36,287 nt of DNA, taken from positions 128,501-164,787 of the forward strand of contig NZ_OLMM01000001.1 in assembly GCF_900291475.1 (NCBI RefSeq). Direction: 5' to 3'. Below, piece after piece: positions 1 through 35,600 of the stretch; the first letter of the stretch is position 1, and each line of letters opens with the position of its first letter. The notes below the pieces were generated by a model. It saw only the letters and a program-made list of their open reading frames with translations. It searched no databases and was not told where the DNA came from. Origin of the DNA: Acidaminococcus hominis (lineage in GTDB: Bacteria > Bacillota > Negativicutes > Acidaminococcales > Acidaminococcaceae). Made by a program: the position numbers and the translations under genes.

Positions 1-162
1 AGCGTTGCGGCCGCATCCAAACATCCCCAAAAATATCCCAGAGGATGTTTGGTTAATAAGGCCCATGCGATAGCCGTCCAAGGAGCAAGTCCGTCAGGAC
101 GCAGCTGCTTGGAATACGGCGAACCGCTCAGGAAGTGTCGCCATAGGCGACGATAGAAGTTT
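1..162 (+). repeat. R1 structured repeat, copy 1 (multi-hairpin element)
   Basis: First copy of a repeat I call R1; it may start just before the window. It folds into a hairpin CCAAACATCC/GGATGTTTGG, then a nested stem (GCCGT/ACGGC enclosing CCAAG/CTTGG and GTCC/GGAC), then a 3' hairpin GTCGCC/GGCGAC followed by GATAGAAGTTT. Further copies lie near 8154, 8318, 8481, 8661, 27117 and 29046, with different bases but preserved pairing. There is no open reading frame. Function is unknown; it could be an RNA or the folded end of a small mobile element. Confidence 0.6.
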
Positions 163-607
163 AATCCAGGTATCATCTTTTAATCAATTATTCGCGGCCC
201 TTGGCCGCAGTAGGAGCACTCTCTGTATAACCCTCAACGTTCACGGGGAGGGTGTCGCACAACGTGCGACGGGAAGGGCCGGTGCCACCTGCGCCCGCAT
301 GCGTGCGAGGTCAGTTACTTGAACAAATCCGCAATAATAATATATTTTGTGCTGCTTAGCTCCTTCCACATTGTGCTCAAAAATAAGTAATTTTAGAAAC
401 GTGGTAGTGCCTTATAGTTGACATCCATCAAGTGTGAGGGAGGTGGCGCCGGGAGGCGACGAAGAGAGTTTTCAAAGCACATAAATATCAAAAACGATAT
501 ATTTTTCCTTTCATTCCAATATTTGCGGCCCTTGGCCGCTGCCTTCCCAGCCCAACAGCAGTCCCAGGCTGGGAAGGTGGGGCGCCCAGCGCCTCGGATG
601 GGTGGCC
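163..607. repeat. Repeat island I (inverted R2-like modules, no gene)
   Basis: No credible gene. Around 200-300 there is a GC-rich stem-loop block (CGTCGCAC-type pairing near 255-270) resembling a minus-oriented R2 module. The stretch from about 290 to 415 closely matches 26985-27105, sharing CACCTGCGCCCGCATGCG and AAAAATAAGTAATTTTA. A central hairpin with GGCGCC/GGCGAC-like arms ends in GAAGAGAGTTT near 445-472. A plus-oriented R2-like module follows at about 529-605, with CCTTCCCA/TGGGAAGG arms, then GGGGCGCCCAGCGCC and GGATGGG. The arrangement minus-R2, hairpin, plus-R2 repeats elsewhere in the window. Confidence 0.5.
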
Positions 608-1641: not shown

Positions 1642-2098
1642 AAAAATGCCTCCTTCAGGTGGAGTGCTTTTTGTCACAACCATTATACCCACGAAGCAAT
1701 CCCAAAAGCAAACGCTAAAACGTTTGGAGTGTCCAGAAAGCCGGCAGTGGGGGATGCCCCGTGCCAACGCAAAGGGTTCCCAGGCCGCACCTACATAACC
1801 AAAATACGTACTTCACACACGTACAACAATCCTTATTTCGTACCATAAATTTGAGTACTATTACATAAATAATGAATTATATTACAAAACGCTGTACATA
1901 TTATATAGTTATTTCGTATTCGTGAAAAATTCATTACATCATATTCTTTGTTTAATAACATAATGCTTATAAAATATAAAAACAATTAAAAGAAAACTGA
2001 AAAGTCATTGACAATTGTCCTCTAATGGAAGATAATTTGATACAGAGAACAGTTCTTAATTGTGCTCAAAATGGAATACGAGAAAAGGGGCGAGGTTT
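1642..2098. other. AT-rich intergenic region before the adhesin
   Basis: Divergent intergenic region between the minus-strand pair and the plus-strand adhesin. The part from about 1800 to 2000 is strongly AT-rich. I see a promoter for the adhesin at 2008-2036 and no gene or repeat-family copy. Confidence 0.5.
2008..2036 (+). promoter_or_regulatory. Predicted promoter of the YadA-like adhesin
   Basis: TTGACA at 2008-2013 and GATAAT at 2031-2036, with a 17-bp spacer. This is close to the sigma-70/sigma-A consensus and lies about 60 bp upstream of the chosen adhesin start. Confidence 0.6.
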
Positions 2099-2949
2099 AT
2101 GAACAAGGCATATCGAGTCATTTGGAGTCGAGTAAAACATTGTTACATCGTTGTCTCCGAACTGGCAAGAAGCCACACGAAAAAATCTGGGAACGCCAGA
2201 GCTGGGGGAAAAAGCATGGCAGCTCTTTGTACGTTCCTATTGCTCAGCAGTGCCGGTGTCGCAGGAGCAGCTGACACCACTGTTGGCGGCGGAGCAGGTG
2301 TGGCCTATGGGACGGGCAGTTCGGCACCCAAAGCGGAAAATGTGGCTATCGGGAAAAATGCCACCATTTCCTACTCTGGCGGCGTTGGGCAGCCATCTAC
2401 AGGCGATATTGTTATCGGTGGTGGTGCACATACCAATAACTATATTGACCAAGGCGGTGGTATCGCAATTGGTGCCAATGCTTTTGTGGAAAATATGGTT
2501 GGAGGCTTAGAGCGATCTTTTGATTTTAATCAGGCCCAATATGATAGCATCTTTGGCATATCGTATGGATTCCCGAAAGATCCATCAAAAATGGTAACTG
2601 GTGTAGCTATTGGTCAGAATACCTATGCCCGTTCCGGCAGCGTCATGCTTGGTACTCATAATTATAAGGGAGCATTAGGCGACACAGAGGTCGATAGTGC
2701 AAATGCAAAGGCTGATAATATGTCGTTGTTTTCTACAACGGTAGGTGCCAATAGTTATACAAATGGATTATTTTCTTCCGTAACAGGCTCGTACTCCATT
2801 GCATCTTCTGATTATAGTGGTGGAACTACTAATGCTGTAAAGAATTTTGGCGCGACTATTACAGGTTCTTTAAACAGCATCGAATCGAAAACAGCATCCT
2901 CCGCTTACTCCGGCATCGCCAGCAGTATTGTTGGTGTGGCCAACTATAG
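2099..2949 (+). pseudogene. YadA-like trimeric autotransporter adhesin, 5' part (interrupted by IS)
   Basis: N-terminal part of a type Vc secreted adhesin. The start at 2099 gives MNKAYRVIWSRVKHCYIVVS, a typical extended signal peptide region (ESPR), then a hydrophobic core (ALCTFLLLSSAGVAGA). Head-domain repeats follow, with GVAIGQNT, NVAIGKNAT and IAIGANAF typical of the YadA head. The coding sequence reaches VGVANY at 2947, where an IS3-family element is inserted. Reading continues into the IS and stops at 3070, so the residues after VGVANYS are IS-derived. Joining 2949 to 4257 restores one frame (NYSSIINRVYNSNG), giving a protein of about 1370 residues. As it stands the gene can only make a truncated, unanchored fragment. 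Base composition here is more AT-rich than in the 3' part. Confidence 0.85.
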
Positions 2950-2992
2950 TGGCACGTTTGTCAAGACCAAAATCGATGAATTTCTAAATGTA

Positions 2993-3871
2993 TCAGGCAG
3001 CAGACATTGCAGCATTGAGCAGCAGTGCCGGGAAGTAGCGCTCTGCTGGCGGGACGTTCCCGATGGCTGAGTGGCAGCGCTGGAAGTTATACACGTTGAT
3101 GTAGTTGCGGATGGCCTTGCGAGCCTCCCGGATGTTGCGGTACTGCGTGAGATAGGCTTCCTCATACTTGAATGTCCGGAACCACCGCTCAATCTTGATG
3201 TTGTCGGCCCAGCGGCTCTTGCCATCCATGCTCTGGCGGATCTTGTGTTCCTTGAGGAAAGCCTTGTACTCCTTGCTGGTGAACTGGCATCCTTGGTCGG
3301 AGTTGAGAATCTGCGGCTTTGCTATACGGAGCGCCTTCCTTACGGCGGCAATGACCATCCGGGTGTCCAGGGTATCGTCCACCTCCCAGCCAACAATGCA
3401 GCGGCTGTACCAGTCGATGATGGCTGTCAGATAAACGAAACCGTGCTCCAGGGGAATGTAGGTGATGTCGATGGACCATGCCTGGTTAGGCTGCTGAATA
3501 TCCACATGCTTCAGCAGGTAGGGCATCACCTGCGCTTGTTGCTGCCGCTTGGAAAGGTTCATCTTCGGATAGATGACGTCGATGCCCATCTCGCGCATAT
3601 AGCGAGCTGTCTTGCGTCGTCCGGCCTGATGCCCGAGGCGCTGCAGCTGCGAGGCCAGCTGCCTTGCGCCCCAGGCAGGATTGTCCGCGTGGCAACGATC
3701 GACGATGCGCTTGCATTCCAGCTCTTCATCTGATGGAGTGTTCTCTTTGGGGTGGTAGTATTGGCTTGTGCGGTTGACGCCGAGCAGCTTTGCTGCTTTC
3801 CGAAGGGAAAGCTCCTTGCACTCACTCCTCGAAAGGTTTTGGAGAATACTGTTTCTCGTAGTCCGGTCCAA
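2993..3871 (-). CDS. IS3-family transposase, orfB (DDE integrase domain)
   Basis: Catalytic subunit of the IS3-type transposase, an rve/DDE-fold enzyme that excises and inserts the element. The DDE residues are visible as SIDITYIP, LNSDQGCQFTS and IKIERWFRTFKYEE. An HTH_21-like N-terminal region (LRKAAKLLGVNRTSQYYH) precedes the catalytic core. The listed start is a TTG at 3871 without a clear ribosome binding site. The frame is open upstream to an A9 run (3885-3893), the usual frameshift position in IS3 elements. However, orfB is in the +1 frame relative to orfA, not the canonical -1 frame, so normal -1 frameshifting would not fuse them. Transcriptional slippage on A9 could. The domain itself appears intact. 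Confidence 0.9.
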   Translation of the reverse strand: MDRTTRNSILQNLSRSECKELSLRKAAKLLGVNRTSQYYHPKENTPSDEELECKRIVDRCHADNPAWGARQLASQLQRLGHQAGRRKTARYMREMGIDVIYPKMNLSKRQQQAQVMPYLLKHVDIQQPNQAWSIDITYIPLEHGFVYLTAIIDWYSRCIVGWEVDDTLDTRMVIAAVRKALRIAKPQILNSDQGCQFTSKEYKAFLKEHKIRQSMDGKSRWADNIKIERWFRTFKYEEAYLTQYRNIREARKAIRNYINVYNFQRCHSAIGNVPPAERYFPALLLNAAMSAA

Positions 3872-4169
3872 GAATTTCCTCAGATTTTTTTTTCAACCAA
3901 TCCACCTGCATGGTGAGTTGGCCAACTTTGCGGGCATAGGAGGCTTTCTCCTTCCGCTCGGTCTCGAGTTTTTGATTGAGGTTGTCCTCTCTGGAATCAT
4001 CGAATATGATGCTTGCCTTGCTGAGAAACTCGTTCTTCCAGTTCCGCAAGAGGTTCGGCAGGATTTCGTTCTCAGCCGCCAGCGTGTTGAGGTCTTTCTC
4101 ACCCTTGAGCAGCTCGATGACGAGATCGGATTTGAATTTCGACGTGAAATGACGGCGCGTGCGTGACAT
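3822..4169 (-). CDS. IS3-family transposase, orfA (HTH, DNA-binding)
   Basis: Small N-terminal IS3 protein that binds the element ends through a helix-turn-helix. The start at 4169 (MSRTRRHFTSKFKSDLVIEL) is chosen because AAAGGAGA lies 8-10 nt upstream; the longer frame up to 4220 has no such site. Residues DLNTLAAENEILPNLLRNWK fit the HTH_Tnp_1 type. The C-terminal part (LETERKEKASYARKVGQLTM) looks like the leucine-zipper coiled coil used for dimerisation. It ends with PDYEKQYSPKPFEE and overlaps orfB. A run of nine A residues in the coding strand (WLKKKSEE) is the likely slippage site. Confidence 0.85.
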   Translation of the reverse strand: MSRTRRHFTSKFKSDLVIELLKGEKDLNTLAAENEILPNLLRNWKNEFLSKASIIFDDSREDNLNQKLETERKEKASYARKVGQLTMQVDWLKKKSEEILGPDYEKQYSPKPFEE

Positions 4170-4256
4170 GATGATTATCTCCTTTTTCATTGATCGCCTC
4201 CAGTATACCACGAGATTCACATTAAGAAATAGTTTCGAAGTTGTCTTAATTCATAG

Positions 4257-7200
4257 TTCCATTATAAACAGGGTATACAATTCCAACGGAGCTTTGGTCT
4301 TTGGTGCCGGCAATGAAATTACCAATTCTGTTACTGATGTATCGGCTTTGGACCTTAATTTTGACAATGCATCGCCCAATGCACTGCGGGATAAGTTGAA
4401 AGGCATGCTGAAAGATGCCAACGGCGGCGGTTCTACCCTGGCCATTGGCGGCGGCAACACGGCGGATTATACCCTGCTGACCCAGATTTCCGGGGTCAGC
4501 AACACCATTACCGGTTCCTCCAGCACCCCTGCCAAGCTGAACTATATTGCCGGGTTCCAGAATACCATAACAAATGCTTCCAATAATATTGTCATGGGGG
4601 ACAAGCATACAGTTACGGCAGAAAACACCATTGCCATCGGTGGTTTGTCCAAGGCTGAAACCCGTTCTGTGGCCAATACCACGTCCCTGGGTTATGATGC
4701 CCTGGTCAGCCAGGAGGGCGGCGTAGCCCTGGGCTACCAGTCCAAGGCGGCGGTAGACAAAGGCGCAGCGGGCTACGACCTGTCCACCAACGCAGCCTCC
4801 ACCGATACCAGTTCCACCTGGAAAGCCACCGCAGCGGCCGTTTCTGTGGGCGATGCGGATAACGGCCTTACCCGTCAGATTACCAGCGTGGCAGCCGGCT
4901 CCGCCGATACCGATGCGGTAAACGTAGCCCAGCTGAAAAAAGCCGTAAGTTCCGCTGCTGGTTCTGCCGCCCACTACTATAGCGTAAAGAGCGACGAGCA
5001 GGGCGACGGTTCCAACTACAACAACGATGGCGCCAAAGGCCGAAACGCACTGGCAGCCGGCGTAAATGCTTCGGCAAAAGGCTTCGAATCGGTAGCCATT
5101 GGCTATGGCACTAAGACCACCGCAGACAACACCGTGGCCATCGGCAACGGCAGCCAGGCTATCGGCAAGCACGGCGTGGCCATCGGCGACGGTGCCACCG
5201 CAGGCTCCCCGGACGGCAACTACCTTTTTGGCAACATTGCCATCGGCACCGGAGCCAATTCCGCCGGCGGCGTTGCTATCGGTGATAATTCCAAGGCCGG
5301 GAATTACAGCTTGGCAGCTGGCCTCTATTCGGAAGCCGGCGACCGGGCCGCAGCTGCTGGGTATTCCAACAAAGCCACTGGCCAGTGGTCCTCCGCTTTG
5401 GGGGTAGGCAACGAAGCCTCGGCCCTTTCCTCTACGGCTGTGGGCAATGGCAACAAGGTGTCCGGCCTCAGCTCCGCCGCAGTAGGCGTGAGCAATAACG
5501 TAGCCCAAAATAATACCTTCGTCCTGGGCAGCCGCGTGACCACCACCCAGGCGAACAGCGTGGTCCTTGGAGCTGGTTCCGCCGACCGGGCGGCCACCAG
5601 TGAGACCAAGGGGACCATCACCCTTTCCGACGGAACCACCCGGGAATATGGGAACTTTGCAGGCACTAGCCCAACTGGCGTGGTCAGCGTAGGAGCTAAA
5701 GACAGTGAACGGCAGATCATCAACGTGGCAGCCGGAAAGATCAGCGCCGACAGCACCGATGCCGTCAACGGCAGCCAGCTCTACAGCCTGGCCAACGAAG
5801 TGGGCAAAAACGCAGACGCCATCAAGACCATTAACACCCAGATTACCAACGTCACCGCCGAAGCCGGTAAGCACACCACCGTAAAGGCCGGGGCTAACAA
5901 GAACCTGACCGTCACCGAAGGCACCAATGCTGCCGGCGGCAAGGAATATACTGTGGACCTTTCCGAAAATCTCAATATTGGTGGGCCGGGCAAAGACGGC
6001 AAGGACGGTACGGACGGCCATATGGGCATTAACGGCAAGGACGGCGTTTCCGGCGTAGGCATCGACGGCAAGGACGGCATCTCCGTCAAGGGCGACAAAG
6101 GCGAAGTGGGCATTAACGGCAACGATGGCATTTCCATCAAAGGCGCAGACGGCAAGGACGCAGTGGCCATTAACGGCAAAGATGGGGTCGGCCATATCGG
6201 TCTCACCGGACCTGCCGGGACCAACGGCAAGGATGGCACCAATGCCGTGGATATTTCCGTGAAGAACGGCTATAACGGCCAGGACGGCACAAGCGGCGCT
6301 GCCGGAGTAGACGGCAAGGACGGTATTACCCGCATCGTTTACGAAGACAAAACTGGAGAACATCAGGTAGCCACCCTGGACGACGGCATGAAGTACGGCG
6401 GCGATACCGGAGATGTCATCGCCAAGAAGCTGAACAACCAGGTGAACGTTATCGGCGGTATTACGGACCAGGGAAAACTCACCGCCGCAGATAATATCGG
6501 CGTGGTCTCTGACGGCAAAGACAACCTAAAGGTGCGGCTGGCCAAAGACCTGACAGGTATCACCTCCATCAGCAATGGAGGCAATACCACCATTACCCTG
6601 GGCGATAACGAAGTGAACGTGAACAACGCCAAAATCACCAATGTGAAGAACGGAGACATTTCCGAAGGGTCCAAAGATGTGGTAAACGGCGGCCAGGTCT
6701 ATAATGTAACGCGGAATTTAGAACAAAAAATAGACAATTCCGCAGCACAGCTGGGCAGCCGCATCAACAAACTGGGCGACCAGGTAGAACGGGTAGGAGC
6801 TGGCGCAGCAGCTCTGGCCGCACTCCATCCCCAGGACTTTGACCCCGATGACAAATGGGACTTTGCAGCCGGCTATGGCAATTACAAAGGAGCCAATGCA
6901 GTGGCCGTAGGCGCCTTCTATCGCCCCACCGAAGACGTGATGTTCTCCGTAGGCGGTTCCTTCGCTGGAGGAGAAAACCTGGTGAACGCCGGCGTCACCT
7001 TTAAACTGGGCCAGCACAACCACGTCACCCGTTCCCGGATAGCCCTGGCCAAAGACGTACTGGAGCTGAAGCAGCTGGTAGCCAAGCAAAGCGCCATAAT
7101 CCAGCAGCTCATGGCCGGACAAACCCCAGCAAGCCCCGCAGCCCAGAACGTTGACTTCCCCGATGTACCTAAAGACCATTGGGCTTATACCTACGTGAAG

Positions 7201-7521
7201 ACCTTGGCCGACAGAGGCTACCTGAAAGGCTATCCGGACGGCGAATTTAAAGGTAACCGTACGATGACTCGTTATGAATACGCAGCCATCATCTATAGAG
7301 CCCTGCAAAACGGCGCCCCTGTAGATGGCAATATGGGCCGCTCTTTGGGTGAATTTGGCCCCGAAATCCAAAAAGTCGCAGAAGCCGACCACTTCCGGGT
7401 AGACCGGGTTTCCGGCAAAGACAACGACCGGCATAAAATCGAACGCCTCCGGGTCAACGACCAAGACGACAAAGCCCAGCACGTATTCCGGGACGTGTAC
7501 GGCAGCCAGATTAAAAAATAG
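4257..7521 (+). pseudogene. YadA-like trimeric adhesin, 3' part with collagen-like region, YadA anchor and SLH domain
   Basis: Continuation of the adhesin after the IS (1087 residues). In order: head repeats (FGAGNEITNS, VAIGNGS, VAIGDGAT and SSAAVGVSN types); necks (AAGSADTDAVNVAQLKK, AAGKISADSTDAVNGSQLY); a Gly-X-Y collagen-like stretch at about 5985-6325 (GKDGKDGTDG and repeats); a stalk (VVNGGQVYNVTRNLEQKI); and the YadA membrane anchor (about 6720-7010, ending VTFKLGQ). After the anchor comes a coiled coil and one SLH domain (FPDVPKDHWAYTYVKTLADR, TMTRYEYAAIIYRAL). In Negativicutes SLH domains bind polyaminated peptidoglycan, so this tail would sit in the periplasm. The fragment has lost its signal peptide to the IS, so it should not be exported unless the IS excises. 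A terminator follows at 7561. Confidence 0.85.
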
Positions 7522-9157: not shown

Positions 9158-9260
9158 ACTTCATCCAGAGCAGCGGAGGGAATTGGCCCTATGAAGCTGC
9201 GGCAACCCCCGGAAGGGAAGGTGCCAAATCCAACGGGAACAACCTGAAAGATGAAACCGC
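9158..9260 (+). promoter_or_regulatory. SAM-I (S-box) riboswitch
   Basis: The S-box core is clear: CCAGAGCAGCGGAGGGAATT, GGCCCTATGAAGC, CGGCAACC, AAGGTGCCAAATCC. P1 is TTCATC (9160-9165) with GATGAA (9250-9255). The P1 3' strand can instead pair with TCATCT (9273-9278) of the terminator, giving the usual choice: SAM bound means terminator on, SAM scarce means antitermination. It controls the methionine-uptake gene downstream. Confidence 0.95.
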
Positions 9261-9270
9261 ACAAAGGCAG

Positions 9271-9297
9271 CGTCATCTTTTCAGATGACGTTTTTTC
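9271..9297 (+). terminator. Riboswitch-controlled intrinsic terminator
   Basis: CGTCATCT/AGATGACG stem with a TTTC loop and a run of six T residues, between the SAM-I aptamer and metQ. Confidence 0.9.
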
Positions 9298-15406: not shown

Positions 15407-17196
15407 CGGACAAAAAGAACCTGAACCAAGAAGACGAAAAGCTCTTGGAAGAATTGCCCCAGGACGAAAACGTCACCAGCCTGACCACCCTGAAAAAAGT
15501 CCTGAACGTCATTGACGCCTACCGGATTCTTCTGGTCCTTAGCATCGTGCTGGCCGGCGTCAGCGTGGTGCTGCAGCTGTACGTACCCGTGCTCTTTGGC
15601 CGGGCCATCGACGGCATCGTAGGTGCCGGCCGGGTGGACTTCGCCCTGGTAGGCCGGTATCTTACCCGGATTATCGCCCTGGTGGCCCTGTCCAGCCTGG
15701 CCACCCTGATTATGAACCTCATCAACAACCGGCTGACCTACCGCACCGTCCGGGATATCCGGGCCAAGGCCATCCGCCAAATCCAGGTGCTCCCCCTGTC
15801 CTATTTGGACGGCCAGAGCATCGGCGACCTGGTGCAGCGGGTCATTGCCGATGTGGACCAGGTCTCTGACGGCCTGCTGCTGGGCTTTACCCAATTGTTT
15901 ACCGGCATCATCACCATCCTGGTGACTCTGTACATCATGTTCACCAAGAACGTGGAAATCTCCCTGATGATCGTGGTGCTGACCCCCGTCAGTTTCTTCG
16001 CCGCCAAGTTTATCGCCACCCATTCCTACCATATGTTCCGCCAGCAGACCGCCGTTCGGGGCCGCCAGACCGCCCTGATCAACGAAATGGTGGGCAGCGA
16101 AAAAGTGGTGAAGGCCTTTCGGCACGAAGCCAAAGCCTCGGAACAATTTGACGTCCTGAACAAAGACCTGCAGCATTATACCCAGCACGCCCTGTTCTAC
16201 AGCTCCTTGACCAACCCCTCCACCCGTGCCGTCAATAACGTCATCTACGCCCTGGTGGCCCTTTTGGGCGCCTTCCGGATCCTCAGCGGCACCATTACCG
16301 TAGGCGACCTGACCGTACTGCTGTACTACGCCAACCAGTATATGAAACCCTTTACCGACATCAGCTCCGTAGTCACCGAGCTCCAAAACGCCATGGCCTG
16401 CGCCGCCCGGGTATTTACCCTCATCGACGCCCAGCCCCAGAGCCCGGATCCCCAGGCGCAGCTGGCCTTTAAAGACGGCAAAATGGATATCCAGCACGTG
16501 TACTTCTCCTACGTAAAAGACAAGAAACTCATCGAAGACTTCAACTTCCACGTAGAACCCGGCCAAACCACCGCCATCGTAGGACCCACCGGCTGCGGCA
16601 AGAGCACCTTCATCAACCTGCTGATGCGCTTCTACGACGTGGACCAGGGCACCATCTCCATCGACGGCCAGGATACCCAGACCGTGGACCGCCATTCCCT
16701 GCGGAAAACCTACGGCATGGTCCTCCAGGAAACCTGGCTGAAACAGGGCACCATCCGGGAGAACATCGCCTTTGGCAAACCCGGCGCCACCGAAGAAGAA
16801 ATCATCCATGCCGCCAAAGAAGCCCACAGCTGGGAATTTATCCGCCGGCTGCCCCAGGGCCTGGATACCGTAGTGGACGATGACAGCCTGAGCCAAGGCC
16901 AGAAACAACTCCTGTGCATCACCAGAGTCATGCTGGCCCTGCCGCCCATGCTCATCTTGGACGAAGCCACCAGCTCCATCGATACCCGCACCGAACTGAG
17001 AATCCAGGCCGCCTTCGCCAAACTCATGAAAGGCCGCACCAGCTTCATCGTAGCCCATAGACTCTCCACCATCCGCAGCGCCGACCAGATTCTTGTGATG
17101 CGGGACGGCAAAATCATCGAACAAGGCACCCACGACACCCTCATGGCCCAAAACGGCTTCTATACACAACTGTATAACTCCCAGTTTGCACAATGA
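15403..17196 (+). CDS. ABC exporter half-transporter, consensus-site subunit (pair 1, subunit B)
   Basis: Partner of the preceding gene, 597 aa. It has a charged N-terminal extension (residues 1-25), six membrane helices, then the nucleotide-binding domain: Walker A GPTGCGKST, Walker B MLILDEATSSID with catalytic Glu, and H-loop IVAHRLST with His. Its signature is LSQGQ rather than LSGGQ. In the dimer, the good Walker motifs here face the good signature of subunit A. The weak signature here faces the degenerate Walker B of subunit A. That gives one catalytic and one inactive ATP site, as in known heterodimeric exporters. A GC-rich hairpin lies about 80-145 bp downstream. Substrate unknown. 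Confidence 0.92.
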   Translation: MTDKKNLNQEDEKLLEELPQDENVTSLTTLKKVLNVIDAYRILLVLSIVLAGVSVVLQLYVPVLFGRAIDGIVGAGRVDFALVGRYLTRIIALVALSSLATLIMNLINNRLTYRTVRDIRAKAIRQIQVLPLSYLDGQSIGDLVQRVIADVDQVSDGLLLGFTQLFTGIITILVTLYIMFTKNVEISLMIVVLTPVSFFAAKFIATHSYHMFRQQTAVRGRQTALINEMVGSEKVVKAFRHEAKASEQFDVLNKDLQHYTQHALFYSSLTNPSTRAVNNVIYALVALLGAFRILSGTITVGDLTVLLYYANQYMKPFTDISSVVTELQNAMACAARVFTLIDAQPQSPDPQAQLAFKDGKMDIQHVYFSYVKDKKLIEDFNFHVEPGQTTAIVGPTGCGKSTFINLLMRFYDVDQGTISIDGQDTQTVDRHSLRKTYGMVLQETWLKQGTIRENIAFGKPGATEEEIIHAAKEAHSWEFIRRLPQGLDTVVDDDSLSQGQKQLLCITRVMLALPPMLILDEATSSIDTRTELRIQAAFAKLMKGRTSFIVAHRLSTIRSADQILVMRDGKIIEQGTHDTLMAQNGFYTQLYNSQFAQ

Positions 17197-17812
17197 TGGG
17201 GGAGAATACCTACCAAGTAATTTCCCGCTGCCAAGCTGAAAGAAACCTCCCAGCTGGGCAGCCCGTTAGAACGCAGCTGCAGAAATCCCTTGCTGCAGCT
17301 GAAAAAGACCCTCCCGGGCCAACACCACCCAGGAGGGCCTTTCCCTATTTACATAAAGAGGACAAAATTTCACAGGATGTTGTCAATCTGTTTAGAAGTT
17401 GGTTAGAATTCTGCCGTATCCTAAAGAAAACCAAAAAGAGAAGGGGAGAACCCCATCCCGGTCCTGCTTTAGAATTAGGGCAGGACCGACCTTCCCCTTT
17501 TCCTGTTCGTACCAAGTGACGAACAGGTAAGTGGAAGGCAAGCGGCCGTAGGCCGCTAAAACCTGGATGGGGGACGGTGCTGGTCTGTGCAGCAGGTGGT
17601 TTGATAGTTAATGTAGTGGTGACACTATACTAACGATTACCAATTGACCAGTACATTCCTAGAACGCTTCCTGCAAGAGTGTAGGAAGTGTCGCCGCAAG
17701 GCGACGAAGGAAGTTTATCCAAGTATTTGCGGCCGCAGGCCGCTGCCTTCCCACAACAACAGCAGTCCAATGTGGGAAGGTGGGGCGCGCAGCGCCTCGG
17801 ATGGGCCACTCA
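17197..17812. repeat. Repeat island III (inverted R2 pair around a hairpin, no gene)
   Basis: After the exporter come the hairpins AGCTGCAG/CTGCAGCT (about 17273-17310) and CCCTCC/GGAGGG (about 17310-17337), the latter a possible weak terminator. The repeat island starts near 17445. A minus-oriented R2 module at about 17450-17548 has stems GGTCCTGC/GCAGGACC and TGTTCGT/ACGAACA. A central hairpin CTTCCTGCAAGAGTGTAGGAAG runs directly into GTCGCC/GGCGAC and GAAGGAAGTTT (17668-17716). A plus-oriented R2-like module at about 17738-17807 has CCTTCCCACA/TGTGGGAAGG. No convincing gene. Confidence 0.55.
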
Positions 17813-17918
17813 TTCCCAAAAACACCTCTATACTTTTCGCAGAAAAGTATAGGACGTTACCTACCTCAAGTCACGTCTGTAATAACCCTATAAAATCTAT
17901 CTTCAGGAGGTAAACCCC

Positions 17919-18047
17919 ATGCTCCACACCCTACTGCATGGATACGACTCCCCGGAGGGCAAAATATTCCCAAAAACACCTCTATACTTTTCGCAGAAAA
18001 GTATAGGACGTTACCTACCTCAAGTCACGTCTGTAATAACCCTATAA
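17919..18047 (+). CDS. Mini-ORF 1 of the tandem array (42 aa)
   Basis: ATG with CAGGAGG 8 nt upstream. The frame starts MLHTLLHGYDSPEGK and ends after VTSVITL at a TAA inside the next repeat unit. Its first six residues equal those of the phosphatase at 18535. It may be translated because the start signals are good; a function is not implied. Confidence 0.35.
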   Translation: MLHTLLHGYDSPEGKIFPKTPLYFSQKSIGRYLPQVTSVITL

Positions 18048-18072
18048 AATCTATCTTCAGGAGGTAAACCCC

Positions 18073-18201
18073 ATGCTCCACACCCTACTGCATGGATACG
18101 ACTCCCCGGAGGGCAAAATATTCCCAAAAACACCTCTATACTTTTCGCAGAAAAGTATAGGACGTTACCTTACTCAAGCCACGTCTGTAATAACTCTATA
18201 A
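18073..18201 (+). CDS. Mini-ORF 2 of the tandem array (42 aa)
   Basis: Second unit, with the same start signals and MLHTLL beginning. The 154-bp spacing puts successive mini-ORFs in different frames, so they cannot fuse. They are separated by about 25 bp containing the next ribosome binding site. Confidence 0.35.
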   Translation: MLHTLLHGYDSPEGKIFPKTPLYFSQKSIGRYLTQATSVITL

Positions 18202-18226
18202 AATCTATCTTCAGGAGGTAAACCCC

Positions 18227-18355
18227 ATGTTCCACACCCTACTGCATGGATACGACTCCCCGGAGGGCAAAATATTCCCAAAAACACCTCTATACTTTTC
18301 GCAGAAAAGTATAGGACGTTACCTTACTCAAGCCACGTCTGTAATAACTCTATAA
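18227..18355 (+). CDS. Mini-ORF 3 of the tandem array (42 aa)
   Basis: Third unit; begins MFHTLLHGYD (CTC changed to TTC) and contains RYLTQATSVITL near the end. The open frame is preserved despite the base changes. Confidence 0.35.
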   Translation: MFHTLLHGYDSPEGKIFPKTPLYFSQKSIGRYLTQATSVITL

Positions 18356-18380
18356 AATCTATCTTCAGGAGGTAAACCCC

Positions 18381-18509
18381 ATGTTCCACACCCTACTGCA
18401 TGGATACGACTCCCCGGAGGGCAAAATATTCCCAAAAACACCTCTATACTTTTCGCAGAAAAGTATAGGACGTTACCTTACTCAAGTCACTTCTGTAATA
18501 ACCCTATAA
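18381..18509 (+). CDS. Mini-ORF 4 of the tandem array (42 aa)
   Basis: Fourth unit, begins MFHTLLHGYD and ends 25 bp before the ATG of the phosphatase gene. Translation here could couple to or compete with the real gene. Confidence 0.35.
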   Translation: MFHTLLHGYDSPEGKIFPKTPLYFSQKSIGRYLTQVTSVITL

Positions 18510-18534
18510 AATCTATCTTCAGGAGGTAAACCCC

Positions 18535-19152
18535 ATGCTCCACACCCTACTGCAATGTGACACGCAGCTTTTCATCTTCATCAACTCCCTGGCCGGCCAC
18601 TCCGCCGTCCTGGACCACTTTATGAAACTGGTGAGCCAGTACGGCCCCTTGGCCTTCCTGCTGGTGTTTGCCGCCCTGTGGTTCAAAGGCAGCAGCCCCC
18701 AGAAACAGTTCGAAAACCGAATTTTCGTCATGCTGGCCGTCCTGGGCACCGCCCTGGCCCTGGCCATCGGTACCGGCCTTGGCACCCTCTGGTTTAGACC
18801 CAGACCCTTTACCGTTCTGGCCGTCACCCAACTGCTGCCCCACGCTGCCAATGCCTCGTTTCCCTCCAACCACGCCGTTGGCTGCTTTGCCCTGGCCGCC
18901 GCAGGCCTGAAGTATAGCCGGAAATTGGGCACCCCTCTGCTGGTACTAGCCGCCCTGGTGGCCATCTCCAGACCCTACGTGGGCGTCCATTACCCCTTGG
19001 ACGTACTGGCCGGCGCCGCCCTTGGCTGGATTACCATGACCCAGGTCTATAAAGCCAGAGCCGCCTTGAGAAGAACCGCCACCCTGCTGGTCTATTGCTG
19101 CGAATGGCTTGGTGAACACTTCCCCGGTCTCAGAACCCTGCAAAAACGCTGA
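18535..19152 (+). CDS. PAP2-family phosphatase, probable undecaprenyl-diphosphatase (BcrC type)
   Basis: Integral membrane acid phosphatase of the PAP2 superfamily, 205 aa. The BcrC type recycles undecaprenyl diphosphate for cell-wall synthesis and gives bacitracin tolerance. The three signature blocks are visible: LWFRPRPF (with the RP of KxxxxxxRP), SFPSNHAVG (PSxH) and SRPYVGVHYPLDVLAG (SRxxxxxHxxxD). Hydrophobic segments at about residues 37-50, 63-85, 113-125 and 133-146 fit a multi-pass protein. The start lies in the fifth 154-bp repeat unit with CAGGAGG 8 nt upstream, so expression is set by the repeat array. The C-terminal tail is short and basic. Other PAP2 lipid phosphatase activities cannot be excluded. 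Confidence 0.85.
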   Translation: MLHTLLQCDTQLFIFINSLAGHSAVLDHFMKLVSQYGPLAFLLVFAALWFKGSSPQKQFENRIFVMLAVLGTALALAIGTGLGTLWFRPRPFTVLAVTQLLPHAANASFPSNHAVGCFALAAAGLKYSRKLGTPLLVLAALVAISRPYVGVHYPLDVLAGAALGWITMTQVYKARAALRRTATLLVYCCEWLGEHFPGLRTLQKR

Positions 19153-19210
19153 GAGAGCAGGGGAGCACAAGTGCTCTGGAAAATGGGAAGGCACCGCCGC
19201 AAGACAATGC

Positions 19211-19271
19211 ACGAGCCAAAGCAAAAAACGACTCTGCAAAAGGGAAAACCAATTGCAGGCTCGTTTTTTAC
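19211..19271 (+). terminator. Terminator of the PAP2 phosphatase gene
   Basis: ACGAGCC (19211) can pair with GGCTCGT, and AAAAACGA-TGCAA pairs with TTGCA-TCGTTTTT. The structure ends in a run of six T residues. Confidence 0.7.
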
Positions 19272-19425
19272 ATTCTGTTTGGTTGTTAATTCTGAAGAAA
19301 GTAAAGAAATCTCTAGCTTCAATAACTGTCCTGCTTACTAAAGAAACTAAATAAGCAGGAAAGTCCAGCCAAGTTCCCCGGAATCCCCGCCATTTATATC
19401 TCAAATCCCCAACTTTTAGAATTTT

Positions 19426-19456
19426 TTGCCAAAACTGGTTATAAACGTGGTACAAT
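19426..19456 (+). promoter_or_regulatory. Predicted promoter of pncB
   Basis: TTGCCA at 19426-19431 and an extended -10 (TGGTACAAT; -10 at 19451-19456) with a 19-bp spacer. The leader to the ATG is about 80 nt and holds a GCGG/CCGC hairpin near 19509-19523. I do not recognise a riboswitch in it. Confidence 0.45.
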
Positions 19457-19543
19457 TGTTACCAATAGCAATACCTGGCCGGAGGTTTCTCCCAGTCCGG
19501 GAAATACGCGGTGCTCAGCCGCAGTAACGAGGAGAAGACTAAC

Positions 19544-26749: not shown

Positions 26750-27217
26750 GAAGGGTATTTGCGGCCTTTGGCCGCGGAGGGAACCTTCACAGCTAAATTG
26801 GTGGAATGAGAATATTTTTGTGTGAACTCGGGGGATGAGTGGGGGGCTGACAGGTAGAGTTGAAGAAAACGGAGAACGTGCTACGCTTTCTACGAAAGCG
26901 TAGAGGTGTTTTTGGGAATATATAAGCGGCGCCAGCGCCGCAGAAGGAGCACTCTCCGTCGCCTCGCGGCGCCACCTGCGCCCGCATGCGCGCGAGGTCA
27001 ACTTCTATAGTAAATTCGCAATAACAATGTGTTTTATCCTGCTTAGTTACCCCCACATTGTGTTCAAAAATAAGTAATTTTAAAAACGTGGTGGTGCCTT
27101 ATTGATTACCTCTACCAAGCATTGCGGCCGCATCCAAACAGCCAGACAAATATTGTATTTGGCTGTTTGGTGAATAAGGCCCATGTGATAGCTGCGGTTG
27201 GCATGCCTCCTTCAAGC
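26750..27217. repeat. Repeat island V, left part (R3, R2-like and R1 copy 6; continues after the IS)
   Basis: No gene. It contains a GCGGCC/GGCCGC hairpin (26760), an R3 hairpin in minus orientation at about 26878-26920 (CTACGCTTTC/GAAAGCGTAG with GTGTTTTTGGGAATAT), a GGCGC/GCGCC stem, and a block similar to 204-415 of island I. R1 copy 6 starts at 27117, with stem CCAAACAGCC/GGCTGTTTGG and then GATAGC. The island is cut at 27217 by an IS3-family element and resumes at 28948. Confidence 0.55.
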
Positions 27218-29831: not shown

Positions 29832-29951
29832 AAAGTAGAAAGATGTGATAAATATTATAACAAAAACCTTATAACTCAAAGGTTGCGGGAAAACCTTTGC
29901 TTGCCTTGCGAAAGGGGGAAAGTCGGTGCCGTAGGGGGCACTGGCATAAAA

Positions 29952-32900
29952 ATGGGGAATAACAATGGTAGAAAACAACACAGTTTTAGACAAAGAAAAC
30001 AGCTTTTGACGGTATTGGTGCTTAGCAGTATTCTGGGGATGGGTCTGTACGCAGTACCTGCTTGGGCAGAGACGAAGACCATCAGCGGGGACGAAGTAAA
30101 GGTCGAAACCAAAACCAGCGGCGTGCAAACGACTGCGATTAATCTGGATAACGGCGGTATTGGCAGCAAAACTTCTGCCTCTGGCAATACGCTGACCATT
30201 TCCGGGGGAACAATCCCAGCTTCTGGCCCCGGCTCCAATATCTTTGGCGGCGTGGTGGCTTCTAATCTGAATTCTGCAGCAACGACGGTGAGTAATAACA
30301 GTCTGACCATTGCCGGCAATACTGCTATTGGGCAGGAAGGCGGTAAGGTTTTCCTTTTTGGTGGCTTTCTCAGTGATTATAAAGCAACAAAAGAGCCTAC
30401 TGTTGAGACAGTAGGCGAACCCCAGGTCGATAACGATAAGGAACAATTTACGATTTCTGGAAATACGGTGACTGCTGCAGCAGTTAAAAATGCTGGTGAA
30501 GTATCAGTCTATGGCGGCGCCCAGGGAATACCTGACGATCCTCAATCTATTTGGATCCATAGGTACTATTTTGACGCGGGAACTGCTTCGGTGGTTAAAA
30601 ATGCTGTGTATCTGGGGACTACTGCCCAAAAGGAAGCAGACGGCACCTATAGCAAAGAAGGTATTACGGAGAATACCATTTCCACAATAAAGGACAACTT
30701 TTATAGTAAGGTGTACGGCGGCTATGCTACCCAGGGCACGGCTGCAAATAACACCATAATAGCCAGAAACATCGGTCTAAACGATATTATGGTAGGCGGC
30801 ATGAATTACTTCGGAGAAGCCAATTCCAATGCTGTAACTTTTTCTGGTTCCTATGGTTACGATGCCGTGATTATTGGCGGTTTTTCTGAAGCAAACTATC
30901 TCTGCCCCAATGGGGATGTAAAATACAATACGGTTTCCATCACGGATAGTATTAGCCATATGGTTATCGGTGGTTCTGCTTATGCCAATGCCAATAGACA
31001 GGGCGGTGATTTCGAAACCGCTTACTTGGGCTTCAGCGCCATTGAAAACCACGTGACAATCCAGGGTGATTCCAGTATTGACGGCGTATTTGGCGGCATG
31101 AGCCATGGCGGTGCCGTTTCTAATACAGTAGATGTAATCAGTGGAAGCGTCGCCAACATTTGGGGCGGATATTCAGAGGGCATGTTTGAATGGAATGGCA
31201 GTTCCATTTCTGCCGAAAAAAATAGCGTGACCATTGGCAAAAAAGATGGTTCTACAAAGCCTATCATTGGGTCTACAGTAATTGGCGGCCAGGCCACGTT
31301 TGAAAATGCCATACAGAATCAGGTCCAGATTTACAGCGCAAGTGTAGGGGATGAAGAGGCCTCTTTGCCAGTTACAGTAAGTCGGTCGGATTCCTATAGC
31401 CATTGGAGCGAATTCCGTCAAATCACCCATACGATTGCCGACGGGGTAGCAACCAATATTTCGGATGGAGATGACTTTGATGGAGGACAAGCCATTGATA
31501 ACCACGTTTCCATCAATGACAGTACCATCGGGACCGAAATCTCCAACATCTACGGAGGCTACAGCGGTTTAAATGCATCAACTAATACAGTAACCTTGAC
31601 CAATACAACCGCTGCTTTGGGAACAGAGACACCAGACTATAACTGGACGAAACTTGAAGCGAGGGGTATTTTTGGCGGCAAATCTGAAGAAGGAAACGTC
31701 AGTCAGAATACAGTCACCTTAGACAATTCCTCGGTGTACGGGGATACCTCCTTATATGGCGGACTCTCTTTTGAAGGGAATGTATCGGACAATAACGTCA
31801 TTGTTAAGAACAATTCAGAAGTAGGTGTTGATTCCTTGTATGGCGGCTATAGCCATTTTGAGGGAACCGTTGAAAAGAACTCCATACAACTGGAGAAATC
31901 CACACTTACAGAAAATGCGTCTTTGTATGGCGGGTATGCAGGTCATGACGCTGTTTCCAATAACAAAGTTTCGCTTTCCCAAATGGATAAAAGCCAGGTT
32001 GCGGCAATCTATGGCGGCTATTCCCATGGTTATAGTAAGGATGACTTTTATGAAGCTAAAAACAATGAAGTGAATATAGAAGCCACAGAGCTGACAAATC
32101 TGGAACAACTTTATGGGGGTTATGCCTATAATGGAAATGTTTCCGGAAACAAAGTCAACCTGAAAGAGGCAACCATTACTGGAGATAACCTTGAATTAGC
32201 TGTGGCTAGCGGAAATAACAGCTATGCCAAGGACAATGCATTATCTATTGATACTTCCACCATTACAGGCCTTAGCCAAATCTATGGCAGCAAAAACGAC
32301 GAAACCACCAGTGATAACAAATTTTCCATTACAGGCAGTGATTTGGCTTTTTCCAACAGCAATTCCTCTACTCTTATAGGAGCCTATGGCAGGACGGTTT
32401 CCAATAATACGTTTTCCATCTCCGATTCTAGAGTAAGCAATATGCTTATGCTTGTTGCGAATAATGCCAATGAAAATGCCCTCGACAATTCTACAACCCT
32501 GACCAATGCCAAAATCTCGGGTTTGCAGATGCTTGTTAATGCTTATGCTAATGAAACTTCCGAAAACAACAAACTTACTATCTCGGGAGGTTCTCTGACC
32601 TATGAGACAGAAACGAACGGCGAGCCAATTCCACCAGAAGCTTCACTTCTGATAGGCGGCAAAGGAAACATTATGGCCCATAATAACCAATTGGAGATTA
32701 CGGGAACCTCTATAACCGATGCACAAACCATTTATGCTGGCGAAAGTGACAATGTTGCCCTTGAAAATCAGCTGACCATTACGACGGCCAATATTTCCGG
32801 TGCTTCTACGATTGCTGGCGGCAAATCTTCCGGGCTATCACAATACACTTACGAGGGCCTAACTGTTCTCAGAGATCCCTGTGCCTATTGGAACAAGGTG

Positions 32901-34859
32901 GATATTAGCGGCGGCAGTGTTACCGCAGAAAATATCTACGGCGGTTATGTAACCAAAAGCACAGAAGAAAGCTCGGCTGACGTGAGCAGCCATGTGTTTG
33001 AAAACGAAGTAACCCTTGGCAGCGGCGTAACGGCTGATAATGTCATTGGTGCGTACACGACTATGCCTGGTGATACCTATGGCAATACTGTTACGGTGGA
33101 AGGCGGTACCATCCAAAAGAACCTGATTGGCGGCAAAACGCCAAGTGGTGAAACTACTGGCAACACCCTGAATATTTCTGGCGGTACCATCGGCACCACC
33201 GAGGCTGTAGATGATGACGGCAATCCCATTACCAACGGCAACCTGATTGCCGCAGGCTATACGGATAACGGCGCAGCCGATAGCAACACCGTCAACGTCT
33301 ATGCCGGTACTCTGGGCCACATGATGAGCCTCTACGGCGGCTACAGCACCACCGAAAGCACCGGCAATACGCTGAATCTCTACACCAAGGACAACACGGT
33401 AGAAAATCTGGGCTATTTCCAGACCCTGAACTTCTACGTGCCAGCAAACGCCAAGGCTGGGGATACCATGCTGGAGGTTACGGGCACCGCCGACGTTCAC
33501 GGCGCAGCCATTAACGCCGGGGTGGAGGATACCACCCAGCTGAACCCGGGCGAAGTCATCAACCTGATCCACGACGGAAATAGCGAAATCAACACCAAGG
33601 ACACCAGCTACGCCATGATGGACGGCAAGGACATCGTTACCGACGCCGCCTTCCTCCAGCGTCGGGCTTACATTAAGCCCCAGGACGCCAACACCATTGT
33701 CCTGTATGTGCCCATCGACAGCCAGCCCATTCTGCACCCGGATACAGAGGTGATCGCTGACGGCCAAGCCAATGCTGCTAGCACGGTAGCCAATGGCTCC
33801 GATGCCGCCGTCACCGACGGTCTCCAGGCAGCCCTGACCGCCTGGGGCGAAAGCCACGAAGCCGCTCGGCTTCGGGAAGACGACCATGCCGCCATGGATA
33901 TGATGGGCAGCCCCTACATTTCCAGCCCGGCAGGTATGAGCATCAGACAAAGCACTTCCATGGTGGCCGCTTCACCCCTTGACGCCGCAGACGCCAAAAA
34001 CGCCAACGTAACCCTCAGCGCAGAAGAAATCGCAGCTAGAGAAGAACGGGATGTAGAAGCCAAGTTTACCCCCTACGTCATGCTGGGTGGTCACAACCTG
34101 CGCTACAACAGCAGTTCTACCGTGGATACCAATGGTTTCAACGGCGAACTGGGTTTTGTCCGGAGAATCTTCAAGAAAGACTACGCCGACACCATCATGC
34201 CCTTTGTAGAATACGGTACCGGCAACTACACCAGCTACAAAAACGGTACCCGGGGCGACGGCAGCCAGCGGTATGTAGGCGCCGGCATCCTCCTTCGCAG
34301 AGACCAGGAAAACGGCGTCCACTACGAAGGCCTGGTGCGGGCCGGCCGCCTTAACGGCGACTATGCCGGCCGCATTGCCGGCTACCGCACCACCTATAAC
34401 TCCGGAGCAGGCTACATCGCCGCTCACGCCGGCCTGGGCAAGATTTACCGCCAGGACAGCAACGACTACAACCTGTACGGCAAATTCTTCTATTCCCATC
34501 TGGGCGGCGACAGCGTCACCCTGCACAGCAGCTTAGGCAGCGCCGATTACGAACTGGACAGCGTCAATTCCTATTGGACCCGCTTGGGCTTCCGGTGGAC
34601 CAAACATCTGGATGAAGACACCACCACCTTCTACGCCGGCTTAGGTTGGGATTACGAATTTGACGGCAAAGCCACCGCCCGGTATAGAGACTACACCACC
34701 CCCGACGCCAGCATGAAAGGATCCAGCGAATTCCTGGAATTAGGTTGGCAGAGCAAAGTTACGAAAGAGAACCCCTGGGGTGCCGATGTGAGAGTCACCG
34801 GGTGGAACGGAGTGAAACAAGGCTTCACATATGGTGTAACGATTACAAGACGTATGTAA
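29952..34859 (+). CDS. Classical (type Va) autotransporter with repetitive passenger and C-terminal beta-barrel
   Basis: Large secreted surface protein of 1635 aa. The ATG at 29952 gives a long basic signal region (MGNNNGRKQHSFRQRKQLLT), a hydrophobic core (VLVLSSILGMGLYAVP) and cleavage near AWA-ETK. Longer starts upstream lack a better site. The passenger has many repeats of the form YGGYS..(G/A).VS.N.V.L, as expected for a beta-helix presented outside the cell. From about residue 1370 (FTPYVMLGGHNLRYN) to the end it is an autotransporter barrel, with strands such as FYAGLGWDYEFDGKA, FLELGW and FTYGVTITRRM. No protease or lipase motif is seen, so an adhesin-like role is the best guess. The coding sequence is AT-richer up to about 33,000 and GC-rich after it, suggesting a mosaic gene with an exchanged passenger. 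Confidence 0.88.
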   Translation: MGNNNGRKQHSFRQRKQLLTVLVLSSILGMGLYAVPAWAETKTISGDEVKVETKTSGVQTTAINLDNGGIGSKTSASGNTLTISGGTIPASGPGSNIFGGVVASNLNSAATTVSNNSLTIAGNTAIGQEGGKVFLFGGFLSDYKATKEPTVETVGEPQVDNDKEQFTISGNTVTAAAVKNAGEVSVYGGAQGIPDDPQSIWIHRYYFDAGTASVVKNAVYLGTTAQKEADGTYSKEGITENTISTIKDNFYSKVYGGYATQGTAANNTIIARNIGLNDIMVGGMNYFGEANSNAVTFSGSYGYDAVIIGGFSEANYLCPNGDVKYNTVSITDSISHMVIGGSAYANANRQGGDFETAYLGFSAIENHVTIQGDSSIDGVFGGMSHGGAVSNTVDVISGSVANIWGGYSEGMFEWNGSSISAEKNSVTIGKKDGSTKPIIGSTVIGGQATFENAIQNQVQIYSASVGDEEASLPVTVSRSDSYSHWSEFRQITHTIADGVATNISDGDDFDGGQAIDNHVSINDSTIGTEISNIYGGYSGLNASTNTVTLTNTTAALGTETPDYNWTKLEARGIFGGKSEEGNVSQNTVTLDNSSVYGDTSLYGGLSFEGNVSDNNVIVKNNSEVGVDSLYGGYSHFEGTVEKNSIQLEKSTLTENASLYGGYAGHDAVSNNKVSLSQMDKSQVAAIYGGYSHGYSKDDFYEAKNNEVNIEATELTNLEQLYGGYAYNGNVSGNKVNLKEATITGDNLELAVASGNNSYAKDNALSIDTSTITGLSQIYGSKNDETTSDNKFSITGSDLAFSNSNSSTLIGAYGRTVSNNTFSISDSRVSNMLMLVANNANENALDNSTTLTNAKISGLQMLVNAYANETSENNKLTISGGSLTYETETNGEPIPPEASLLIGGKGNIMAHNNQLEITGTSITDAQTIYAGESDNVALENQLTITTANISGASTIAGGKSSGLSQYTYEGLTVLRDPCAYWNKVDISGGSVTAENIYGGYVTKSTEESSADVSSHVFENEVTLGSGVTADNVIGAYTTMPGDTYGNTVTVEGGTIQKNLIGGKTPSGETTGNTLNISGGTIGTTEAVDDDGNPITNGNLIAAGYTDNGAADSNTVNVYAGTLGHMMSLYGGYSTTESTGNTLNLYTKDNTVENLGYFQTLNFYVPANAKAGDTMLEVTGTADVHGAAINAGVEDTTQLNPGEVINLIHDGNSEINTKDTSYAMMDGKDIVTDAAFLQRRAYIKPQDANTIVLYVPIDSQPILHPDTEVIADGQANAASTVANGSDAAVTDGLQAALTAWGESHEAARLREDDHAAMDMMGSPYISSPAGMSIRQSTSMVAASPLDAADAKNANVTLSAEEIAAREERDVEAKFTPYVMLGGHNLRYNSSSTVDTNGFNGELGFVRRIFKKDYADTIMPFVEYGTGNYTSYKNGTRGDGSQRYVGAGILLRRDQENGVHYEGLVRAGRLNGDYAGRIAGYRTTYNSGAGYIAAHAGLGKIYRQDSNDYNLYGKFFYSHLGGDSVTLHSSLGSADYELDSVNSYWTRLGFRWTKHLDEDTTTFYAGLGWDYEFDGKATARYRDYTTPDASMKGSSEFLELGWQSKVTKENPWGADVRVTGWNGVKQGFTYGVTITRRM

Positions 34860-34924: not shown

Positions 34925-35600
34925 TGTGAAATCGGGGGATTGGATGGGGGCTGACAGGTAGTGCTGAAGAAAAAGGACGACGTACTACAGTTTCTACGAA
35001 ACTGTGCGGTGCTTTTTCAGAATATATGGCGGCGCCAGCGCCGCAGAAGGAGCCTTCCCCACCCAGGGCCTTGGATTCTTGGTGTGGCCTGTCCCTCCCC
35101 TTCCTCATAGGCGGGGAGGGCATGGGGTAGTGCTGGCCGGGACTGTAGATGTTTTTGATAGCGAATGTAGTGGTAAAGCTATCGTAACGATTAACAATTG
35201 ACCAGTAGTGGCTATAGAACGCTTCCTGCAAGCGTGTAGGAAGTGTCGCCATAGGCGACGATAGAAGTTTATCAAAGCTTTTCGCGGCGCCGGCGCCGCG
35301 TCTGCCTTCCACTTACCAGTGCACTGCTTGGCGTGCACTGGAGAAGGGGAAGGGTGGCTGCGCCCAAGAGTAAAACGCAGCCGGGATGGGGTTCAAAAGT
35401 AGGCTGCCTGCACCACACCCGTTGAGAACGTCGACCAAAAATCCGGTACAGAGTTTTCTCCAGCTAAAAATTGCCCTTGGGCAATTTTTCTGTAGTTGCT
35501 TCTCAAACCCCGGCACCAGTGCTAGACCCTGCCGACCGTACTGTTATTAAAAATTCGCGAGGATTCCCTGCACCAGCACCAGGAAGTTCGCTGACCGTAC
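34925..35600. repeat. Repeat island VI (R3, inverted R2 pair, central hairpin; no gene)
   Basis: R3 hairpin in minus orientation at about 34985-35025 (CAGTTTC/GAAACTG). GGCGCC hairpin at 35030. Minus-oriented R2-like block 35048-35133, almost the same as at 29190. Central hairpin CTTCCTGCAAGCGTGTAGGAAG leading into GTCGCC/GGCGAC and GATAGAAGTTT (35222-35270). Plus-oriented R2 module from 35303, with stems AGTGCAC/GTGCACT and GGCTGCG/CGCAGCC. A small AAAAATTGCCC/GGGCAATTTTT hairpin follows at 35465. Confidence 0.6.
35303..35462 (+). repeat. R2 structured module, plus orientation
   Basis: GCCTTCCACTTACC, stem AGTGCAC/GTGCACT instead of TGTTCGC/GCGAACA, GGGGAAGG, second stem GGCTGCG/CGCAGCC, GGATGGGGTTCAAAAGTAG, then GACCAAAAATCCGG. 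Both stems changed by compensatory substitutions relative to the copies at 8765 and 29424. Confidence 0.6.

Follow-up and report, generated by a model that had tools for sequence, protein, structure and literature searches.

The gene for a PAP2-superfamily phosphatase in Acidaminococcus hominis is preceded by what appear to be further copies of its own leader and start codon, arranged head to tail at a constant period within the 36,287-nucleotide stretch of DNA analysed here (the window). This locus raises the question of how a gene start came to be repeated, and of whether the additional starts influence the production of the phosphatase or are only by-products of the way in which the array was formed.

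Anatomy of the array and reliability of the assembly

TRF delimited a tandem array at 17812-18554 with a period of 154 bp, 4.8 copies, 98% matches and 0% indels, that is, with the constant-period head-to-tail copies that define a VNTR. The array consists of four complete units, followed by a fifth, 126 bp long, that carries the real PAP2 leader and start (Table 1), which bears out the five-unit array of exact period described ahead of the PAP2 gene in the first-pass annotation. Every unit contains a perfect 11-bp palindrome hairpin (CTATACTTTTC-GCA-GAAAAGTATAG), the Shine-Dalgarno (SD) site CAGGAGG and an ATG, and in each full unit this ATG opens a 42-codon frame starting with M-L/F-H-T-L-L, again as had been claimed.

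Table 1. Coordinates of the array, its decoy frames and the PAP2 gene, given as positions in the window
Feature	Position	Strand	Remarks
Unit 1	17813-17966	+	154 bp, full
Unit 2	17967-18120	+	154 bp; no differences from unit 1
Unit 3	18121-18274	+	154 bp; 5 differences from unit 1
Unit 4	18275-18428	+	154 bp; no differences from unit 3
Unit 5	18429-18554	+	126 bp matching, then into the gene; carries the real PAP2 leader and start
Decoy ORF 1	17919-18047	+	42 codons; ATG at 17919
Decoy ORF 2	18073-18201	+	42 codons; ATG at 18073
Decoy ORF 3	18227-18355	+	42 codons; ATG at 18227
Decoy ORF 4	18381-18509	+	42 codons; ATG at 18381
Junction spacer	17939-17966	+	28 bases; includes the small hairpin CCC-CGGA-GGG of the dispersed repeat
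Full repeat copy in the array (units 1/2 junction)	17945-18006	+	covariance model match C13:146445-146506; again at +154, +308 and +462
PAP2-superfamily phosphatase	18535-19152	+	205 aa; PF01569, 2.5e-20

The units vary at positions 51, 52, 59, 63, 75 and 110, plus position 127 at the junction, and non-identical pairs differ at 4-5 of them: unit 5 departs from units 1-2 at four positions and from units 3-4 at five, the junction base being counted in each case. Five of the six variable sites lie between positions 51 and 75, a stretch able to pair with the Shine-Dalgarno site. The palindrome, the SD site and the spacer are unchanged among units, and the 21-base core of the spacer, searched with up to three mismatches, has four matches in the genome, all four of them inside the array. 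In unit 1, CGGATGGGCCACTC adjoins the ATTCCC core, and the GC hairpin (GGCGC-GCA-GCGCC) lies about 15 nt further upstream than in the usual copies of the repeat described below.

Judged from its sequence, the perfect period with two identical neighbouring pairs of units is the look of a copy-number-variable tract, and the array is probably a VNTR. Bacterial VNTR loci occur in intergenic or leader regions. They resemble the array in having exact-period units next to a gene and identical neighbours, whereas the present array is seen in one genome, the unit having no match in any of the eight congeners (one genome per species), and its unit includes the gene's own start site. Should the number of units turn out to differ among natural strains, the locus would serve well for telling them apart, and it would offer a ready-made series of one to five start sites in which the effects of upstream frames and of anti-SD pairing on a real gene could be followed.

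The array, or the number of its copies, might also have been produced by the assembly, a possibility that we regard as improbable. Elsewhere this assembly joins contigs at single Ns flanked by the same sequence on both sides. Our TRF sample covered 400 kb of the organism's own genome, in 20 stretches chosen around repeat copies and not at random, and the overlap was exactly duplicated at 9 of the 14 joins that it contains (137 bp in seven, 477 bp in one and 227 bp in one) and not exact at five, including two 138-bp doublets that contain mismatches. The exact runs of the array, 205 and 256 bp long, exceed the 137-bp overlap, so that the copy number of five is provisional. However, the window contains no N, the period is 154 and not 138, the exact runs do not equal the period minus one, and the substitutions that distinguish the units follow a consistent pattern. 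The 138-bp overlap artefact was consequently rejected as the source of the array, for its wrong period and the missing N. It should be noted that the TRF rows with period 138 and 2.0 copies, nine in number and located inside transposase-like ORFs or at their ends (seven exact and two near-exact, among them those at L137, L140, L145, L149 and L155), are join artefacts that mimic tandem duplications, and that TRF reported two more contig joins with periods of 478 and 228. The window itself begins right after a single-N join: the 477 bases before the N are identical to window positions 1-477 and form an unmerged overlap (C13:128022-128977). Six other tandem duplications in the 400 kb, with periods of 77-222, are not contig joins.

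A dispersed two-hairpin repeat within each unit

The first part of each unit belongs to a dispersed two-hairpin repeat that the first-pass annotation had not recognised, in which a small GC-rich hairpin is followed by (C)ATATATTCCCAAAAACACCT and then by a 10-11 bp palindrome whose changes are compensatory. When the unit was compared with its own genome by BLAST, parts of its first 50 bases matched at 11 further places, and 13 places beyond the array were located when the unit was cut at another point. A covariance model gave 25 matches in the same genome at E <= 0.01, comprising five in the array, two partial ones on the opposite strand that coincide with other copies in the count, and 18 dispersed copies, of which the three with the poorest scores have E values of 4e-5 to 1e-3. 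Across the remaining 58 family genomes, searched with strict filters that lose weak matches, the model returned four weak matches (E 3e-4 to 6e-3), none of them in the eight congeners. These four were rejected as copies, as they look, when read by eye on the opposite strand, like AT-rich hairpins without the AAAAACACCTC core. Among the 59 family genomes searched, the model gives convincing copies in one.

The stem of the palindrome occurs as CTACAC, CTACAG, CTACGC, CTATAC or CCACAC, with both arms changing together. Because the position of the GC-rich hairpin shifts between copies, a pairing model that included it was dropped and the palindrome alone was modelled. The alignment comprised eight dispersed copies and one array unit, selected from 14 sequences of which five, with a shorter arm or a longer loop, were left out; all 11 of its 11 pairs are kept in all rows (100% of cells paired) and 4 of the 11 have changed on both sides. 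None of 500 shuffles reached the covariation score, and the number of additional pair types is not unusual, as 212 of the 500 shuffles attained it.

REP/BIME, ERIC and BOX-type elements are intergenic palindromic repeats. The present repeat resembles them as a short structured element with paired stem changes and about 20 copies in one genome, and its 18 dispersed copies with a conserved stem make it REP-like in the broad sense. By contrast with REP elements, it is not accompanied by a REP-type transposase: the Y1 (RAYT) transposase PF01797 had no match in this genome and was present in 5 of 14 control genomes, for which reason the reading of the hairpin as the end of an IS200/IS605 or RAYT element was rejected. 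No Rfam family reaches its threshold on the repeat in the window, where the gathering thresholds yield just a SAM riboswitch at 9158-9257. Derivation from a phage or another virus was likewise set aside, since positions 17600-19200 have no match among phage records and the array start and the repeat core have no exact match among viral contigs. Among the papers listed on Acidaminococcus and repeats, surveyed in titles and the beginnings of abstracts, none describes the two-hairpin repeat, and among those listed on leader tandem repeats and on Acidaminococcus none concerns this locus or repeat. On present sequence comparisons, the repeat, which has so far been met in this genome alone, would be the more general novelty of the locus.

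The copies appear to be intergenic, and the 15 examined are not placed in any uniform way with respect to genes. The dispersed copies are clustered: contigs C8, C9 and C13, which total 0.81 Mb, hold 17 of the 18, and C7 (1.08 Mb) holds one. Two lie on the minus strand of the window itself, at 26881-26940 and, as a weak copy (E 5e-4) downstream of the long ORF 29883-34859, at 34985-35045. Parts of the repeat also make up imperfect tandem arrays at L155:18319-18501 and L154:4184-4423 (periods of 85 and 102), for which reason we consider that the repeat tends to sit in duplications.

The combination of dispersed and tandem copies with a small ORF and an SD site recalls the MIRUs, which, in the part of a review that deals with them, are dispersed and also tandem and carry a small ORF ahead of a gene, with a 4-nt overlap of stop and start (PMC12548453). 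By analogy, a mobile element made of the two-hairpin repeat and a small ORF might insert at gene starts and couple its ORF to the gene. We hold this to be very improbable. As far as that description of MIRUs goes, the array differs from them in that the dispersed part lacks such an ORF and that a single array locus was met in our searches: the SD/ATG stretch of the array is found in none of the 13 dispersed copies (of 18) that were printed with their flanks, none of which has a small ORF with an SD site, and the L027 and L036 copies precede a different gene, which has an SD site and ATG of its own, by roughly 110-160 nt. The spacing differs as well, at -4 nt in MIRU coupling against a gap of 25 nt in the array, where no decoy stop overlaps the next start.

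Decoy frames and possible effects on expression

The first-pass annotation, the interpretation of which is supported in part, had stressed that four decoy starts precede the true start and that the four frames stay open although the units have diverged, and had proposed that changes in copy number could tune expression. The ATGs and the open frames do exist, but their translation, like such tuning, would be conjectural, they show no sign of selection, and the openness of the frames is weak evidence, because only 15 of the 369 possible single substitutions create a stop in a decoy frame, so that a frame would remain open after six random changes with a probability of about 0.78. Of 5000 dinucleotide shuffles of the tail, 480 left the frame open as far as codon 42. 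Read by eye in the decoy frame, three of the six variable sites are silent and three change the amino acid. At the level of sequence, the decoy peptide shows no sign of selection or of constraint.

The frames could nevertheless matter as a translational relay, in which each translated decoy frame would cross the next hairpin and anti-SD arm and so unmask the SD site of the next unit, ribosomes being passed stepwise to PAP2 and the output being set by copy number or by ribosome stalling. Folding predictions lend this some substance in units 1-2, where the SD site is predicted to be masked by TTACCTACCTCAAG, with a mean unpaired probability of 0.014 that rises to 0.39 when the leader is blocked up to the decoy stop. 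The corresponding predicted values without such a block are 0.28 in units 3-4 and 0.15 in unit 5, and an AC-to-TA change at positions 51-52 accompanies the higher predicted accessibility in units 3-4 and 5. The predicted opening energy of the SD site, on the other hand, is 5.2 kcal/mol in units 1-2, 5.3 in unit 5 and 3.3 in units 3-4, so that only units 3-4 would be easier to open. The leader of unit 1 has an MFE z-score of -2.55, with 1% of shuffles equally low, whereas those of units 3 and 5 are unremarkable (-0.63 and +0.88), so that the leader of the real gene, in unit 5, has little structure overall. The masking itself is mildly unusual: it was matched by 17 of 300 shuffles for unit 1, which makes it a hint there, by 228 of 300 for unit 3 and by 98 of 300 for unit 5.

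The arrangement of the frames also bears on a relay. Each decoy frame would cover the masking arm of the next unit, and 25 nt separate its TAA from the next ATG, an arrangement from which the idea of a relay derives. This gap is long for translational coupling, the efficiency of which drops with growing stop-start distance according to the same review (PMC12548453). Furthermore, unit 1 has no preceding decoy frame that could open it, and the leader is absent from relatives, which deprives the relay of comparative support. Taken together, these predictions leave the relay unlikely. Its extension to a copy-number-tunable device derived from the genome-specific repeat, in which masked 5' units would be backed by the looser units 3-4 and the number and type of units would set the level of the phosphatase, appears quite unlikely.

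A tandem duplication in the ermC translational attenuator of pSES6 was reportedly described by Lodder in 1996 (cited in PMC6157413). The two cases are alike in that a gene leader is duplicated in tandem, with the difference that the attenuator is known there, the ermC type being one in which stalling on the leader ORF in response to the drug frees the SD site, whereas here SD masking is a prediction that is clearest in units 1-2. Judged by its title alone, the ermC case would be the nearest precedent.

The amplified element might alternatively be a promoter, a terminator or an operator, such that more units would alter transcription through or around the gene. A -10-like TATAAAAT, read by eye, stands ahead of the SD site in each unit, but scanning of positions 17196-19500 revealed no plus-strand sigma-70-like site inside the array, the nearest lying upstream at 17380-17409, and the minus-strand promoter-like matches in units 1, 2 and 5 are just 9-of-12 matches. 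On the minus strand, the scan marked the palindrome of every one of the five units as terminator-like (CTATACTTTTC-TGC-GAAAAGTATAG AGGTGTTTTT), and the region holds six terminator-like sites against 3.2 expected. Five bases, AGGTG, separate the stem from the T-run, however, and no gene is known whose transcription would cross the array on this strand. The dispersed copies keep the palindrome through two-sided changes, and in mechanically called ORFs around 15 of them the palindrome-side gene ends towards the repeat in eight cases, as would suit a 3'-end signal, against three in which it starts away from the palindrome and four that are unclear. A role in transcription is thus, to our mind, also unlikely. 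The minus-strand palindrome with AGGTGTTTTT is shared by the dispersed copies, which could be 3'-end signals, and at least five of the eight genes that end towards the repeat are related surface-protein genes.

Origin of the PAP2 gene and of the array

The product of the gene belongs clearly to the PAP2 superfamily, its PF01569 score of 73 bits being well above the gathering score of 27.2. Its further description as a likely bacitracin-tolerance enzyme is less secure. The undecaprenyl-diphosphate phosphatase model NF008813 gave 83.5 bits against a curated cut-off of 229, and NF047884 gave 68.4 bits against 250, so that the protein does not fall among BcrC-type undecaprenyl-diphosphate phosphatases by these scores, and among proteins of solved structure its best relative in sequence is LpxE. 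In view of the NF008813 score and of LpxE as the nearest solved structure, a role in bacitracin tolerance is a guess. The glutaconate CoA-transferase of the genome aligns to PDB 1poi_A, an Acidaminococcus fermentans entry, at E 1e-213 with 12 differences counted over 317 residues, which makes Acidaminococcus the most likely genus from this protein too, whereas plasmid sequences compared by way of an IS element gave 99 records, short pieces nearly all at 60-80% identity, and pointed to no host.

A PAP2 match of some kind was obtained in five of the eight congeners, the best-scoring one being 33% identical and another 40% identical over about 110 residues. In the five congeners that were read, no PAP2 gene lies in the approximately 10 kb upstream of the nicotinate phosphoribosyltransferase gene, and in one of these five the same ABC transporter is located about 9.7 kb from that gene, compared with 2.3 kb here. 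Outside the family, 16 of 17 PAP2 loci (12 of the 17 named Alicyclobacillus) scored 106-127 bits, against at most 77.4 bits for 21 loci within it, a comparison made by score, without a tree, between sets gathered by different methods. The higher scores outside the family suggest lateral acquisition, and the gene, missing from this site in the five congeners read, was probably acquired. When up to 1,200 bases upstream of PAP2 relatives were inspected (40 loci submitted, two without a match, hence 38), no comparable array was found, just one 15-bp repeat, and the leader of the array is common to none of the relatives compared.

We consider it probable, with moderate confidence, that the array is a VNTR-type tandem amplification of the leader and first seven codons of this probably acquired PAP2 gene, expanded and close to neutral in its effect. 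This reading rests on the perfect period, the identical pairs of units, the dispersed copies of the repeat, the spacer core confined to the array and the decoys without signs of constraint, together with the six other tandem duplications in the 400 kb and the lack of an array upstream of the 38 relatives. The array would most probably be the outcome of ordinary copying errors, not a designed switch. On the other side, the clustering of the variable sites at positions 51-75 and the predicted differences in SD masking could count against amplification and might fit regulation.

We infer the order of events, the instability of copy number and the near-neutral effect as follows. The ancestral leader would have happened to hold one copy of the dispersed two-hairpin repeat, and a first duplication would have brought codon 7 of the gene next to the sequence that lay immediately before the repeat (...CTACTGCA to TGGATACG...), with no more than one or two homologous bases at the joint. 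The later increase to about five units would have come about by slippage or homologous recombination, the identical pairs 1=2 and 3=4 marking the latest expansions; at least two later expansions or conversions are implied by these pairs. The junction spacer would most simply once have stood upstream of the first unit, where CGGATGGGCCACTC now replaces it, a small later deletion at unit 1 thus being likely; as an alternative, the spacer could be filler DNA introduced at the junction rather than old upstream flank. Since no unit lacks a strong Shine-Dalgarno site or an ATG, any transcript crossing the array would include, ahead of the gene, four short frames that lead nowhere. PAP2 keeps its own SD site and start, however, and the amplified array is therefore probably near neutral and would influence expression no more than modestly.

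Two further features of the window were noted. A large surface-protein-like gene (span 2060-7521, ORFs 2060-3070 and 4159-7521) looks interrupted, as judged from the ORF list, by transposase-like ORFs at 2993-4220 on the opposite strand. The SAM riboswitch mentioned above (84.2 bits) precedes an NlpA-type lipoprotein gene at 9285, which is an ordinary arrangement for this riboswitch.
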